This document shows positions 1,463 to 10,526 of a stretch of DNA of 45,120 nt, in pieces. The translations under genes and the position numbers were made by a program. Source of the stretch: Burkholderiaceae bacterium (GTDB taxonomy: Bacteria > Pseudomonadota > Gammaproteobacteria > Burkholderiales > Burkholderiaceae_C); assembly GCA_013360485.1 (NCBI GenBank), contig JABWBN010000031.1:1-45120 (forward strand), written 5' to 3'. The stretch's first letter is position 1. The number at the start of each line of letters is the position of its first letter. Below the pieces are notes generated by a model. It made no database searches. It was not told where the DNA came from and saw nothing but the letters and a program-made list of their open reading frames with translations.

Positions 1463-2011
1463 TCAGAAATGTCCACCGATGCGGGCCAGCCCGAGCGCGG
1501 CCAGCGTCATCGCGTTGTCGATCTCGCCGCTGGCGATGCGGCTGCCGATCTCGGCCGCATCGAGCAGGACGACGTCGATGTCCTCGCCCGCGTCGGGCCG
1601 CGGTGGTGTCCGGTGGCTCACGTTGCGCGCCAGGTAGATCCAGGCTCGGTTGGCCAAGAGCGCCGGCTGCGGGTGCAGCACGCCCAGGATCTGCAACGGC
1701 TCATCCGTCGCGTAGCCGGTCTCCTCGGCGAGCTCACGCGCTGCGCCTCGGTCCGGTTGCTCGTCGATGCCATCGTGCAAACCGCCCGGCAACTCGAGGC
1801 TGTCGCGGCGCGAGCCATGGCGGTACTGCCGGACCATCACGACCTGGCCGCTTGTGGTCAGCGGCAAGACCGACAGCCAGTCGGCCATGTGCAGCACGTG
1901 AAAGTCGCGCGCCTGGCCTGTGCGCGGTGACTGCGCCCGGTCGCGAAACACCCGAAAGACGCCGGCATCGAACACCGGGTGCGATTGCAGCAGTGGCCAG
2001 GGTCGCGTCAT
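1463..2011 (-). CDS. Nudix hydrolase (ADP-ribose pyrophosphatase-like)
   Basis: ELPGGLHDGIDEQPDRGAARELAEETGY Nudix box; ATG overlaps the stop of the upstream gene by 4 nt. Confidence 0.88.
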   Translation of the reverse strand: MTRPWPLLQSHPVFDAGVFRVFRDRAQSPRTGQARDFHVLHMADWLSVLPLTTSGQVVMVRQYRHGSRRDSLELPGGLHDGIDEQPDRGAARELAEETGYATDEPLQILGVLHPQPALLANRAWIYLARNVSHRTPPRPDAGEDIDVVLLDAAEIGSRIASGEIDNAMTLAALGLARIGGHF

Positions 2012-3270
2012 GCTGCCTGGGCCTGCGTGCACGCCTGCGAGCGTTGATGAAGCCGCACGAACTCGTCGACGGCAGCCCGAGCGAAGTCGTTCGTGTACAG
2101 GTGCAGGTCGATCTCGCGCACGCCCTCGGGGTGATCCAGGCGATCCTTCAATCGCTGGACGAATGCCGCGTCGGCGACGGGGTCGTAAATCGGGCGGCCC
2201 TCCTTGTCGAGCGACGACCAGCCCTTCAGCGGAACAAGGAAGGTCCAGGGGCCGCGCGCCTGGTTCAGCCGCTGGGCGATCACATCGGCGGCCGCGCGCA
2301 ACTCGTCCGCAGTGGTACGCACCTGCACGCGCAGCGCATCCTGCACGTACTGGACGCGGTCCTTGGTCTTCTCGAGCATGTCGGCACGCCCGCCGTAGGA
2401 CAGGATGTCCAGGCCGCAGGGCGCCAGCACCATGGGGATGCCGGTGGTCACGGCGGCCATGAGGCGGTCGGGCCCGGGGTCGCGGTTGCCGTGAAACAGG
2501 TTCTCCATGACGCCGCCGATGCACAGGTCGAGCACGCCCTGGAAGGCGCCGTCGCGGATCATTTCCTCCATCGCGCGATCGCCCTTGCCTTGCGCATGGC
2601 AGACGATGGGAGTAAAGCCCGCGTCCTCCAGCATCCCCAGCGCCGCCTGCACCGCCATCTCGCCGAAGCCGAAGGACGACACCGCAACACACGGCTTGTC
2701 GAAGTGGATCTCGGTGCCCTGGGTCATCTCGACCATGCCGCAGATGGCGCCCACGGCGTTGGTGATCTGGGCTCGCAGCAGCGGATTCATCTTCACGATG
2801 TCCAGCACCGTGTGATGCATCGTGATGTCGCGCGTTCCCACGTACTTGTCGATGTAGGCCGGGTGCGCCGCCATCGGCGAAGCCATCACCTTGGGCATGC
2901 CGAAGGGCAACTGCTTCATGATGGATGTGGCCACCAATGTGGCTGTGCCGCCCCCGATGCCGATGATGCCGTGCACGCGGCCTTGCCTGACGAGATCGCC
3001 GACGATGGCCGCTGCGCCACGAATCTGGTTGTTGGTCGCGGTGTCGCGGTCCGATCGGTACTTCTCGCGCACCACCTCGATGGGCAGCCCGCCGCGCTTG
3101 GCCACATCGTCAGTGCGAATGTCGCCAGGGAAGGGCGGTGGCTCCTCCATGCTGAAGTCGAGCAAGATGGGGTCGTGCCCGCGGCCGCGTATCAGGTCAC
3201 GCACGAAGACGATGTCCTCGCCGCGCGTGTCGAGGTTGCAGACGATGACGATGCCTTTGCGGGAACTCAT
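2008..3270 (-). CDS. Tm-1-like ATP-binding / UPF0261 family protein
   Basis: MSSRKGIVIVCNLDTRGEDIVFVRDLIRGRGHDPILLDFSM... GIIGIGGGTATLVATSIMKQLPFGMPKVMASPMA. Confidence 0.88.
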   Translation of the reverse strand: MSSRKGIVIVCNLDTRGEDIVFVRDLIRGRGHDPILLDFSMEEPPPFPGDIRTDDVAKRGGLPIEVVREKYRSDRDTATNNQIRGAAAIVGDLVRQGRVHGIIGIGGGTATLVATSIMKQLPFGMPKVMASPMAAHPAYIDKYVGTRDITMHHTVLDIVKMNPLLRAQITNAVGAICGMVEMTQGTEIHFDKPCVAVSSFGFGEMAVQAALGMLEDAGFTPIVCHAQGKGDRAMEEMIRDGAFQGVLDLCIGGVMENLFHGNRDPGPDRLMAAVTTGIPMVLAPCGLDILSYGGRADMLEKTKDRVQYVQDALRVQVRTTADELRAAADVIAQRLNQARGPWTFLVPLKGWSSLDKEGRPIYDPVADAAFVQRLKDRLDHPEGVREIDLHLYTNDFARAAVDEFVRLHQRSQACTQAQAA

Positions 3271-3342: not shown

Positions 3343-4854
3343 TCAGCCGGCCTTGGGCTTCTTGACTTCGGGGCGGGTGAGGCGTCCGATCATGTCGGCC
3401 ACCGGGCTGGCGCCCTTGAAACCATAGTCGCTCCAGCGATCGGACACCTTCTGCAGCACCGCGCGATCCATGAAGATCTCCTGCGGCTTGTTGGCCCACT
3501 CATAAGGCGTGCAGGCGTCCAGGATGATGCGGCTGGTGATGTCGCGCGCCTCGATGGGTAGGCCCGGATCCAGCGGTGTGGAGCGGCCACGGTCGATGAT
3601 CTGCGCCGAACGCTTGGGGTCGAAGCGCGTGGCCAGCGCCCACCACACGCGGTCCATGTCGTCGGCCTCGATGTCGTGGTCAACCACGATCACGCCCTTG
3701 AGGCCATAGTGACCGGTGGTGCTGGCGATCACGGCGTTGCCCACATGGTTCGAGTGGCCCGGGTACATCTGCTTGACCGACACCACCGCCCAGAAGCGGC
3801 CGGTGGCGGCCGCAGGCAGGTACACGCTCTGGATGCCGGGCACGCGCATGGTCTCCAGGTCGTACCAGAGGGTTGCCGTCCGGTTGAGCGACTGGATCAT
3901 GTGGATGTCGTTGATCGGCTTGCCCACCGTCGTCGACCAGAACACCGGCTTGTTGCGGTGCAGGATGCGTTTGACGCGCAGCACCGGCTTGGGATAGTCC
4001 TTGCCCTTGTTGCCCGAGTAGTAGCCGGTGTACTCGCCGAAGGGGCCTTCCTCCATCAATTCGTTGGGGTCGATGTATCCCTCGGCGATGATTTCGGCGT
4101 TGGCGGGCAACGTCAGCCCGGTCAGGTCGGACTTGAACACTGGCACGGGGCGGCCGCGCAATGCACCGGCGACATCGTATTCATCGGTCTGCGAGCTCAC
4201 CAGGGTGGAGCCGGCCAGGAACAGCACCGGATCGCAGCCGACGACCGCCGCGGCCGGCATCAGCTCGCCGCGTTCCTGGTACTTCTTCATGTGCATGTCG
4301 CCATGCTTGCCCTTGATGATCTGTGAGCCGAGGATGTTCTTGCCCAGAACCTGCGAGCGATAGGTGCCCAGGTTGGTCCATCCGGTGTCGGGGTCCTGGG
4401 TGACGAGATAGCCCGCGGTGACAAAAAAGCGGCCCCCGTCGTCCGGGTAGAACCAGGGCACTGGAAAGCGCTCGAGGTCGACGGCATCGCCCGAGATGAT
4501 GTTCTCCATCACCGGAGGGTTGTCCACATACGCCGGCTTGATCATCTGCTTCGTGGTCAATTCCATCCAGCGCTTGGACAGCTGGCACATCGACAGCGAC
4601 GGATCCTGCTCGAGCGCGATAGCCAGCCGCTTGGGCGTCGTGAAGGCGCTGGTGAACACGGGGATGTCATTGCCCTTGACGTTCTCGTACAGCAGGGCCG
4701 GCCCCTTGGTCTCCTCGTTCACCTTGGAGACGTGGCAAAGCTCGAACTTCCAGTCCACTTCGGTCTTGACGCGGTGGAGTTCGCCGTTGGCTTCGAGCGC
4801 GGCGATGTAGCTGCGCAGATCGTCGATGGGCCTGACTTCGGTACGTGCGTTCAT
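3343..4854 (-). CDS. UbiD-family (prenylated-FMN) decarboxylase/carboxylase, candidate phenylphosphate carboxylase catalytic subunit
   Basis: TNLGTYRSQVLG and EEGPFGEYTGYYSG (UbiD Arg and E-x4-E active-site motifs); 503 aa. Confidence 0.92.
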   Translation of the reverse strand: MNARTEVRPIDDLRSYIAALEANGELHRVKTEVDWKFELCHVSKVNEETKGPALLYENVKGNDIPVFTSAFTTPKRLAIALEQDPSLSMCQLSKRWMELTTKQMIKPAYVDNPPVMENIISGDAVDLERFPVPWFYPDDGGRFFVTAGYLVTQDPDTGWTNLGTYRSQVLGKNILGSQIIKGKHGDMHMKKYQERGELMPAAAVVGCDPVLFLAGSTLVSSQTDEYDVAGALRGRPVPVFKSDLTGLTLPANAEIIAEGYIDPNELMEEGPFGEYTGYYSGNKGKDYPKPVLRVKRILHRNKPVFWSTTVGKPINDIHMIQSLNRTATLWYDLETMRVPGIQSVYLPAAATGRFWAVVSVKQMYPGHSNHVGNAVIASTTGHYGLKGVIVVDHDIEADDMDRVWWALATRFDPKRSAQIIDRGRSTPLDPGLPIEARDITSRIILDACTPYEWANKPQEIFMDRAVLQKVSDRWSDYGFKGASPVADMIGRLTRPEVKKPKAG

Positions 4855-4893: not shown

Positions 4894-6021
<1,128 letters not shown>

Positions 6022-6027
6022 GGTGGC

Positions 6028-7863
6028 TCAGCGCGCGATGGTGATGGCACCGGTGGAGCCATCCACCCGCAGCAACATGCCGGTCTTGATGATCTTGGTG
6101 GCATGGCCAGTGCCCACCACGGCAGGCATGCCGTACTCGCGGCAGACGATGGCCGCATGGCTCATCACACCGCCCACGTCAGTGACGCATGCCCCGATCT
6201 TGGCGAATGCCGGCGCCCAGGAAGGCGAGGTTGTCGGCGCGACGAGGATCTCGCCCTGTTGCAGCTGCCCCACCTCCCCAACGGTGCGGCACACCCGCGC
6301 TCGACCTTCGATCACCCCCGGGCTGCCCGCGAAGCCCTTGAGCTCGGTGATGCTGTCGGGGTCCTTCACCTCCTGCACCGCGGCCCAGTCGGCCAGTGAC
6401 TTGTTCGTCACGCCCCACAGCACGATGGTGAACGGCTCCTGGATGACCTCGGGCGCCGTGCCGATGGCCGGTGGCGCGTTCCACTCCTTGAACTTTGCCA
6501 TCACCCCCTTGCGCCACTCGACTTCCTTGGGCCAGGTCTGCGTGCCGCGCGGCGTGACGCCGGTGGCCCAGGCGGTGACGATGTCCCAGAGCGCCTGCTT
6601 GATCTCGTCGCGCCGCATCAGCCAGACGTCCTCGACATCAGCGATGACGCCGTGCTCCTTCATCACCGCTGCGACCTCGCGCATCTTGTTCCAGAACACC
6701 GAGTGGAACCAATGCTCCACGTAGAAGAGGTGGTTCTCCACATACGGGAACACCGTCTTTGCGCAGCCCAGGAGTTCGTCGAACTGCTTGCGGTCCTCGT
6801 CCTTCTCGATCAGGCCGCGGTACTCGGCAGTGATGCGGTCTCGTTCAGCTCGCACCTGCTCCATGGGACGCTCGATGCTCTCGCCCTTGCGGATCTTCTG
6901 GACGTAGGTCTGGATCCCCGTGAGCGGGATGTTCATCGCGTCGTTCCACGAACGGTCGTGGTGGAACCATCCGGTTCCAGTGGAGACGTTGAACCACGGC
7001 TCGCGTGACAGGCTCAGCGAGGTCAGCCACTGCGTGCCCCGCGGTGAGTTCTTGAGCGCTGCCTCGACCACGGTCCACTCAGGGCTGGAGTTGACGATTT
7101 CGTCAACGTGCAGTTCGACGGCCAGATGTGCGAGCTTCTTCAGCTCCTCGTCGGGCTGGTACATGATGACGTCGATGCCCGAGATCATCTGTGTCACCCG
7201 CTGTGCCGGAATACTGGGGAACAGCTTCTGCACGAAGTCGAGGAAGAACACGTAGGCGGCGTACCCGAGGTTCAAGAACTCGAAGTGGTACTGCCAGCAC
7301 TTGATGCCCAGGTTGATCAGGTCGTCGTAGTTCTTCAGCAGGTGGTAGCCCTTGGACTCACCCAGGGCGCCGGTGACCACCGATATGTCTTCCATGTCCG
7401 CCAGCCGCGGAATCTCGAGCTTCTCGAGTTCGCGGATCGTGGCCTCCATCTTGACCTTCCACTTGGCCTCGAGGTCGTCCCAGTTCTTGTAGTAGTGCCC
7501 CGCTCGCTCCATGAAGTGCGGCACGCGGCTGCCGATCTCCTCAGGGTCCTTCACCGGCACCGGCGAGATGTAGACGTAGCCGTTGATGATGCGGTGATCC
7601 ACGCCGCGCACCGGCGGAACCATGAAGATGCGGTTGTTGTACTGCGACAGTGCGAGGTACCAGGCTTCGTCCCAGATCGTGTCGAACGGATACAGCGGCT
7701 CGGGATAGTGCAGGCCGTCGTAGAACCAGAACATCTCCTTCTCGTACTGGTTGCGCACCGGATCGTCGGTGACGAACTGGTACTGGTACGGATACATGCG
7801 CTCCCAGCCTTCAGTGCCGGGTATGGTCTTGGCCTTCACGTCGTGCGGAACCGGGAACTTCAT
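6028..7863 (-). CDS. ppsA: PEP-utiliser mobile-domain (phosphohistidine) protein, phenylphosphate synthase subunit 1 (PpsA-like)
   Basis: 611 aa; C-terminal GGVMSHAAIVCREYGMPAVVGTGHAT phospho-His domain; partner gene 6 bp downstream; N-terminus unlike canonical PEP synthase. Confidence 0.85.
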   Translation of the reverse strand: MKFPVPHDVKAKTIPGTEGWERMYPYQYQFVTDDPVRNQYEKEMFWFYDGLHYPEPLYPFDTIWDEAWYLALSQYNNRIFMVPPVRGVDHRIINGYVYISPVPVKDPEEIGSRVPHFMERAGHYYKNWDDLEAKWKVKMEATIRELEKLEIPRLADMEDISVVTGALGESKGYHLLKNYDDLINLGIKCWQYHFEFLNLGYAAYVFFLDFVQKLFPSIPAQRVTQMISGIDVIMYQPDEELKKLAHLAVELHVDEIVNSSPEWTVVEAALKNSPRGTQWLTSLSLSREPWFNVSTGTGWFHHDRSWNDAMNIPLTGIQTYVQKIRKGESIERPMEQVRAERDRITAEYRGLIEKDEDRKQFDELLGCAKTVFPYVENHLFYVEHWFHSVFWNKMREVAAVMKEHGVIADVEDVWLMRRDEIKQALWDIVTAWATGVTPRGTQTWPKEVEWRKGVMAKFKEWNAPPAIGTAPEVIQEPFTIVLWGVTNKSLADWAAVQEVKDPDSITELKGFAGSPGVIEGRARVCRTVGEVGQLQQGEILVAPTTSPSWAPAFAKIGACVTDVGGVMSHAAIVCREYGMPAVVGTGHATKIIKTGMLLRVDGSTGAITIAR

Positions 7864-7960
7864 GGCTTGCCTCGTCCTTGTCTGTGGTGGGGCCCGGTCT
7901 TCTCATGGTTGGTCCCGATTCGAATCAGGAACCCGCGACCGGGCAACGCACACCTGCATC

Positions 7961-7976
7961 TGCATAAGGCGTGCCA
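7961..7976 (-). promoter_or_regulatory. sigma54 -24/-12 promoter for the pps-like operon
   Basis: Minus-strand TGGCACGCCTTATGCA: GG-N10-GC, one mismatch to TGGCACGN4TTGCA; ~98 bp upstream of the ATG at 7863. Confidence 0.85.
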
Positions 7977-8113: not shown

Positions 8114-8170
8114 GTGATCAATTCGTCAACTGGTCGTTCACCAAAACCGGTGACTTCATCAATTGGTGAG
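8114..8170. promoter_or_regulatory. Putative upstream activating sequences for the divergent XylR/DmpR-type activator
   Basis: GTGATCAATTCGTCAA (8114-8129) and TTCATCAATTGGTGAG (8155-8170) approximate TTGATCAATTGATCAA (3 and 4 mismatches); also TCACC-N5-CGGTGA arms between them. Confidence 0.6.
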
Positions 8171-8310
8171 AAGCACCGTGTCGGGTGTTCAGCCGCCTCG
8201 GCTGGGAGTCGCACTAGGGATCTACCCGCGACCACCCCACGCATTGACGTGCATCAGCGCCAGGCGGTGAAGCGCCGCCTACAAAACCAGGTTCCGCAAG
8301 ACTTCTAAGG

Positions 8311-10062
8311 GTGACCGTGGCGAAGCTGCGCAGCGTTCCCCGCACCGACGGGCACGACCTGCGCGCCCAGGTGCATTTCTGCCCCGAGACCGGACAGATC
8401 TGGCTGCACGAGCACCGCATGCTGCTCGTGCACGCCGAAGCGCAGGCCACGTTGCGCAAAGAACTGATCGACACCCTGGGCATGGAGCGCGCGCAGGGCT
8501 TGCTCACCCGCATGGGCTACGCATCAGGCCTGCGCGATGCCGAACTCGCGCGCAGTCGTGCCGAGAACGCGAGCGACCTCGAGGCATTCATGACCGGGCC
8601 GCAGTTGCACACGCTCGAGGGCATCGTGCGGGTGACGCCGGTCCGGGTCGAGATCGACCGGCCAGGCGGCAAGTTCTACGGCGAATTCCTCTGGGAGAAC
8701 TCCTGGGAGGGCCAATGGCACCGCCACTACTACGGCATCCACTCCGAGCCGGTGTGCTGGACGCAGATCGGCTATGCCTGCGGCTATACGTCGGCGTTCA
8801 TGGGTAGGCCCATCCTCTACAAGGAAGTCGAATGCGTCGGAATGGGCGACAACGGTTGCCGCATCATCGGCAAGCCGGTGGAGGAGTGGGAAGATGCCGC
8901 GGAGCACATGCGCTTCCTGGCGCCTGAGTCGATCGCCGATCAGTTGATCGACTTGCAGTCGCAGGTGGGTCTGCTTCGCGCCACGATCGATGAACAGCAG
9001 AAGCTGCCCGAGGACATGGTGGGCCGTTCGCCGGGCTTCCAGGCCGCCTACGACCTGCTGCGCCAGGCGGCGGGCAGCCAGATCACGGTGCTGCTGCTGG
9101 GTGAAACCGGGGTGGGCAAGGAACTCTTCGCGCGCGCGCTGCACGGCATGGGTCCGCGACGCGGCGAGCCGTTCGTGGCCATCAACTGCGGCGCGATACC
9201 ACCCGAGCTGCTGGAGTCGGAGCTCTTCGGTGTGGAAAAGGGCGCTTACACCGGCGCGCTGGTGTCCCGCCCGGGCCGGTTCGAGCGGGCGAACGGCGGC
9301 ACGTTGTTCCTCGACGAGATCGGCGACCTGCCGCTGTCGGCACAGGTGAAGCTGCTGCGCGTGCTTCAGGAGGGCGAGATCGAGCGCCTGGGTGACCAGA
9401 AGGTGCGGCGCGTCAACATCAGATTGGTCGCCGCCACCAATGTGGACCTGCTGCAGCGCGTGAAGGAAGGCCGATTCCGCCCCGATCTGTACTACCGGCT
9501 CAACGCCTACCAAGTGAGCATACCGCCGCTGCGCGAGCGCAAGGAAGATGTGTCCGTACTGGCCAAGCGATTCCTCGAAAAGTACTCGGCCGTGCATGGC
9601 AAGAAGTTGCGAGGCTTCACGGACAAGGCCAAGCGAGCATTGCTGACGCACCCCTGGCCGGGAAACGTTCGCGAACTGCAGAACATGGTCGAGCGCGGTG
9701 TGATACTCGCGCCTGCGGGCAGCCGCATCGAGGTGAACCACCTGTTCACGTCGTACAGCGTGGAGCACCCGCGCGAGTTCGGCCTCGATGTCAACGGTGA
9801 CCTGGACATCAGGCGCTGGGACGCCGGGCGCGGCTTGTGCGAGGCGGTACTCAATGGCGTGATGACGCTCGACCAGGTCGAGTCCATGCTGCTCGAAACC
9901 GCTGTCGACAAGGCGCGGGGCAACCTGTCGTCGGCGGCACGTCTGCTGGGCATCACGCGGCCCCAACTGGCCTACCGACTCAAGCGCTTGCACGAGGGCA
10001 CCAGTACGGGGTCCGAGCTGGCTCCAGCGGCGGAAACTGGCCCAGACGGCAGCACGACGTGA
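8311..10062 (+). CDS. XylR/DmpR/PoxR-type sigma54-dependent aromatic-responsive activator
   Basis: XylR_N-like N-terminus, V4R region with Cys residues ([40 protein letters not shown]), Walker [26 protein letters not shown]-terminal HTH_8. Confidence 0.93.
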
Positions 10063-10526
10063 GCGGCAACGAACTGCGCGATCGGATTCGCCGCTACCTG
10101 CACGAGCACCATGTGGCCGCGTTGGCCACGCAGGGAGCGCAGGGGCCCTGGGCGGCGGCAGTGTTCTACGCAGGCGATGAGACCGGGCTGTACTTCCTGT
10201 CCTCGCCGCGCAGCCGTCATGCGGTCAACCTGAGTCAGCATCCGCGTGTGTCGGCGGCCATACAGGACAACTGCACCGACTGGGCCGAGATCCGGGGCGT
10301 TCAACTGGAGGGGTTGTGTGCGGAACTCGAGGGGCGCGACCGTGAGCGGGCCCAGCGGCAATACGCGCAGAAGTTCCCGCTCATCGCGCATCCCGCGCGC
10401 GCGCCGTTGGCCATCGCAGAGGCCCTGGCACGGGTGCGCTGGTACCGGCTCGTTCCGGACCGCCTCTACCTGCTCGACAACTCACGGGGATTCGGACACC
10501 GTGAGGAGCTCACGCACTTCGGTTGA
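10059..10526 (+). CDS. Pyridoxamine 5'-phosphate oxidase-like FMN-binding protein
   Basis: HHVAALATQGAQGPWAAAVFYAGDETGLYFLSSPRSRHAVNLSQHPRVSAAI; GTG start overlaps upstream stop. Confidence 0.8.
   Translation: MSGNELRDRIRRYLHEHHVAALATQGAQGPWAAAVFYAGDETGLYFLSSPRSRHAVNLSQHPRVSAAIQDNCTDWAEIRGVQLEGLCAELEGRDRERAQRQYAQKFPLIAHPARAPLAIAEALARVRWYRLVPDRLYLLDNSRGFGHREELTHFG

Follow-up and report, generated by a model that had tools for sequence, protein, structure and literature searches.

A conserved sigma54 promoter and enhancer pair at a predicted anaerobic phenol-degradation operon, and a putative FNR-type promoter of its divergent activator gene

Introduction

An NtrC-type regulator gene reportedly lies divergent to the phenol cluster of Thauera aromatica. 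Control of a phenol operon by sigma54 and PheR is already known from the circuit of Aromatoleum aromaticum EbN1, where ppsA1 is no longer expressed once pheR is deleted and the promoter region contains a sigma54 consensus (PMC10715001). The main text of that paper does not mention FNR. The aerobic phenol hydroxylase circuits, DmpR (CapR)/Po, PoxR, MopR, and MobR, use a divergent XylR/DmpR-type activator, a sigma54 promoter, and enhancer sites (UAS) of the TTGATCAA type. Anoxia is linked to aromatic degradation at the AcpR/FNR-activated promoter PN of the bzd operon in Azoarcus sp. CIB, which has an FNR-type box at -41.5 overlapping the -35 region (PMC6678401).

Here, we analyzed a 45,120-nucleotide stretch of DNA from a Burkholderiaceae bacterium (the window), in which a candidate sigma54 promoter had been noticed. 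The locus resembles the pps-ppc system of EbN1 in its first gene, its sigma54 consensus, its directly flanking activator gene, and its XylR/V4R phenol sensor (PMC10715001). It differs in coming from another organism, with its closest ppsA relatives in the Betaproteobacteria, and in having UPF0261 and NUDIX genes between ppcB and the CBS-domain gene. The aerobic circuits share with the window the divergent activator, the promoter, and the UAS type, but their target enzymes are oxygenases, and the regulators of the plasmid-borne aerobic examples are approximately 45-55% identical to that of the window. The bzd promoter shares the FNR-type box and its position; however, the target of AcpR there is the catabolic operon itself (PMC6678401), whereas the box in the window precedes the regulator gene. 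We are highly confident that the candidate site serves an anaerobic phenol-degradation (pps-ppc) operon as its sigma54 promoter, under the control of the divergent PheR-type activator.

Results

Genes of the operon

The closely spaced genes on the minus strand were, in order, ppsA, ppsB, ppcB, UPF0261, a NUDIX protein gene, a CBS-domain protein gene, and a gene for a UbiX-type protein. The first gene, ppsA (6028-7863), encodes a phenylphosphate synthase subunit with a PEP-utilizer mobile domain. It is followed by ppsB (4894-6021), for the PPDK_N ATP-binding subunit of the same enzyme, which 77 of 80 loci carry on the same strand, and by ppcB (3343-4854), for the beta subunit of phenylphosphate carboxylase, a UbiD-family protein that scored above the cut-off of TIGR02724. 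By their domains, the next products are a UPF0261 (Tm-1-like) protein (2008-3270) and, after the NUDIX protein, a PpsC-like CBS-domain protein (757-1476). The UbiX-type flavin prenyltransferase (72-827) is the last gene before the contig ends at base 1; the operon is visible up to that point, and the remaining carboxylase subunits are not visible here. The CBS-domain gene of Azoarcus KH32C directly follows ppsB, whereas ppcB, UPF0261, and NUDIX intervene in the window.

A conserved sigma54 site upstream of ppsA

The -24/-12 element TGGCACG-CCTT-ATGCA was located on the minus strand at 7961-7976 (5'-GGGTA TGGCACGCCTTATGCA GATGC-3', with its T at 7976 and its A at 7961), within the 447-bp divergent intergenic region between ppsA and the regulator gene. 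The GG (7975/7974) and the GC (7963/7962) are separated by exactly 10 nt (GG-N10-GC), and the sole mismatch to TGGCACG-N4-TTGCW is at the first base of TTGC, where an A replaces the T. The ppsA ATG (7863) lies 98 bp downstream of the end of the site, and the start of the operon transcript is predicted near 7950, 12 nt beyond the GC. A search of the intergenic region for sigma70-like sites found none.

The motif by itself proves little. With the loose pattern TGGCACN5TTGCW at up to two mismatches, 31 matches were found in the GC-rich window compared to 28.7 expected, and the full pattern at up to one mismatch gave 1 match compared to 0.75 expected. Counting motifs over the whole window was uninformative because the numbers of matches equaled chance. 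Position and conservation carry the proof. For the correct strand of the 447-bp intergenic region, the shuffle probability of the full pattern was 0.004. Conservation was examined in 80 loci with closely related ppsA genes (80-91% protein identity). The scan covered the 79 sequences that extended far enough upstream, namely 78 relatives plus the window. A GG-N10-GC site with up to three mismatches, 50-110 bp before the ATG, was present in 76 of the 79 upstream regions, where shuffles predicted 1.95; with up to two mismatches, 72 regions had it compared to 0.4 expected. The core bases G, G, T, G, and C were invariant across 78 sites. When the alignment was anchored on the site, the information content was mostly 1-2.3 bits in the core and almost zero on both flanks. 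Outside the motif the upstream intergenic regions of the relatives aligned poorly, and mere relatedness of the loci therefore does not account for the conserved site.

The original prediction had described a near-perfect GG-N10-GC site, with one mismatch and about 98 bp before a ppsA-like ATG, as the promoter that drives the ppsA-led operon. Its coordinates and spacing were confirmed. "Near-perfect" is a fair description, since the mismatched A was found in 15 of the 78 sites and is therefore an accepted natural variant. The position and the conserved -24/-12 element support the proposal that the operon would be transcribed from here.

Only one sufficiently long upstream region, that of locus L050, lacked a sigma54 site, and it lacked the UAS and the regulator as well. 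It belongs to a second ppsA copy in one draft genome and serves as a natural negative; the other copy in that genome (L042) has the regulator, the UAS, and the sigma54 site. Separately, a palindrome, TTGCTGC-N3-GCGCAA, was seen approximately 8 bp upstream of the -24 element in some relatives (e.g. L001, L008, L009, and L038). With up to four mismatches it occurred in 34 of 72 regions compared to 8.6 expected, and it was absent from the window. This palindrome may be the site for a further regulator.

The divergent activator and its enhancer sites

The gene on the other side of the intergenic region (8311-10062, plus strand, GTG start) encodes a sigma54 activator of the PheR/DmpR/XylR type, with XylR_N, V4R, AAA+ (Sigma54_activat), and Fis-type HTH (HTH_8) domains. 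The closest solved relative of the protein is CapR/DmpR (6iy8), and alignment with it showed that the His and Trp of the phenol pocket are conserved (GPQLH and PVCW); a phenol-anchoring role has been described for these residues (PMC10715001). The activator loop reads GAYTGA rather than GAFTGA, which is the majority form among the relatives (60 with GAYTGA and 7 with GAFTGA). In 71 of the 80 loci a regulator gene is divergent to ppsA, and most of these regulators are 69-79% identical to that of the window. Directly after the regulator gene there is a pyridoxamine 5'-phosphate oxidase-like gene (9837-10526), which may share its transcript; the same neighbor is found in Azoarcus KH32C.

Two DmpR/XylR-like palindromes spaced 41 bp apart were found between ppsA and the regulator gene. 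They were scored against TTGATCAATTGATCAA, which we take to be the XylR/DmpR UAS consensus. The promoter-proximal UAS (GTGATCAATTCGTCAA on the plus strand, 8114-8129) has three mismatches to it and is centered approximately 171 bp upstream of the predicted start, and the promoter-distal UAS (TTCATCAATTGGTGAG on the plus strand, 8155-8170) has four and is centered approximately 212 bp upstream. The pair in the window was unmatched in 5000 shuffles. Such pairs, with a spacing of 40-42 bp, occurred in 66 of the 72 divergent regions compared (those of 71 relatives plus the window), where shuffles predicted 0.2. The operon had been tied to the divergent sigma54 activator from the outset, and the UAS pair at its conserved 41-bp spacing makes that link stronger than was stated. 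A consensus search for an IHF-like site between the UAS and the promoter found none in the window or in any relative. In this respect the promoter differs from the IHF-assisted type represented by Po and Pu, and any bending of the DNA must have another source.

A putative FNR-type promoter of the regulator gene

Alignment of the relatives revealed a conserved TTGA(C/T)-N4-ATCAA upstream of the regulator. In the window, this FNR/ANR-like box (TTGACGTGCATCAG, 8244-8257, plus strand) has 2 of 10 mismatches to TTGAT-N4-ATCAA, with its last A changed to G, and is among the weaker ones. A -10 element, TACAAA (8280-8285, plus strand), follows exactly 22 nt after the box, and the regulator transcript is predicted to start near 8292. 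A box with up to 2 of 10 mismatches was present in 59 of the 72 regions compared to 6.7 expected from shuffles, and with up to one mismatch in 35 compared to 0.5 expected; 13 loci had none. Of the 59, 38 had a TANAAN hexamer at an offset of exactly 22 nt from the box, and any other offset was seen at most three times. The implied leader was 15-30 nt in 35 of the 36 cases where it could be measured. Judged from sequence, a box centered at -41.5 with a -10 element at -12 to -7 matches the layout of class II FNR-type promoters. In Azoarcus sp. KH32C, a named isolate, the two elements read TTGATATGTGTCAA and TAGAAG and are spaced identically. The genome of the window also encodes an Fnr homolog with an N-terminal cysteine cluster (NF008365, 246 bits against a cut-off of 228).

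Four aerobic phenol-hydroxylase counterparts (Ideonella, Achromobacter, MobR of Acinetobacter, and P. veronii) served as a small control set. All four had a sigma54 site and UAS-like sites, and a class II FNR-like box ahead of the regulator gene was seen in none. The open-access papers searched contained no description of an FNR-type promoter preceding pheR. The conserved FNR-like promoter of the regulator gene is, apparently, undescribed.

Sigma54 in the genome

Searches for rpoN with PF04552 and PF04963 gave no match in the genome of the window. The NCBIfam model detected the N-terminus of rpoN (102 codons) at the very end of another contig, where the frame runs off, and the two Pfam searches were empty because the gene is cut there. 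The genome therefore has rpoN as a fragment, the rest being absent from the incomplete draft. The gene was found in all 21 searched genomes that were at least 90% complete with low contamination and in nearly all related genomes.

Discussion

Various readings of the sigma54 site were considered. It is extremely improbable that the motif arose by chance and the operon is read from another, sigma70-type promoter. The loose pattern is as frequent in the 45 kb as in shuffles, and about one match at up to one mismatch is expected; however, chance would not account for conservation at a fixed position in 76 of 79 upstream regions, for a fitting UAS pair, or for an adjacent sigma54 activator, and the intergenic region offered no sigma70-type site. 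Conservation in effect refutes this reading. Slightly less remote, and still very unlikely, is a genuine sigma54 promoter regulated by some enhancer-binding protein other than the divergent activator. Four loci (L018, L026, L028, and L033) would fit this reading, as they have the sigma54 site and no regulator within approximately 4 kb upstream. However, all four retain UAS-like sites, and their regulator may sit elsewhere, as it does in L051, where it is downstream. The regulator is divergent in most of the loci, and the loss of ppsA1 expression upon deletion of pheR in EbN1 (PMC10715001) also speaks against another protein.

The identity of the factor at the FNR-like box is less firm. It is possible, though we think it unlikely, that the box is a third PheR site, used for autoregulation, or the site of an NO sensor (DNR/NNR). 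TTGA/TCAA halves are common to the UAS and to FNR boxes, DNR/NNR are members of the same family, three FNR-type regulators are present in EbN1 (PMC9765128), and FNR, ANR, and DNR/NNR boxes are indistinguishable by sequence. A third PheR site is disfavored by the center of the box, which is unlike the UAS (N4, with a T and G bias and no CAAWTG). The fixed 22 nt to the -10 element also argues against it, being the layout used by class II activators such as AcpR/FNR at PN of bzd (-41.5; PMC6678401).

Under the favored reading, with PheR acting at the UAS and an FNR/ANR-type regulator at the box, RNA polymerase with sigma54 would rest inactive at TGGCACG-N4-ATGCA. The PheR-type activator encoded by the divergent gene would bind the two palindromic UAS approximately 170 and 212 bp upstream, and its XylR_N/V4R domain would bind phenol or a close analog. 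The AAA+ domain would then remodel the polymerase through DNA looping, and transcription would begin near 7950. The activator gene itself would be read from the class II FNR/ANR-type promoter, with its box centered at -41.5. In that case, the protein would be produced mainly at low oxygen, and the operon would therefore need both anoxia and phenol.

The arrangement is probably a two-layer AND gate, although we hold this with less confidence than the assignment of the sigma54 promoter. An FNR/ANR-type regulator would allow PheR to be made only at low oxygen, and phenol-bound PheR would activate the sigma54 promoter. This gate would be conserved across the Betaproteobacteria and some other lineages, and the aerobic DmpR-type circuits would share its sigma54/UAS half without the oxygen half.

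The UAS pair, the conservation, and the FNR-type promoter of the regulator gene go beyond the original prediction. With them, what began as one observed motif becomes a well-supported promoter, complete with enhancers, for a pathway of oxygen-free phenol removal. The sigma54 promoter itself is ordinary, and the putative oxygen-linked promoter of the activator is the part worth following. A conserved FNR-type promoter on the sensor gene offers a testable explanation of how the pathway may be kept off in air despite a sensor that resembles those of aerobic circuits.
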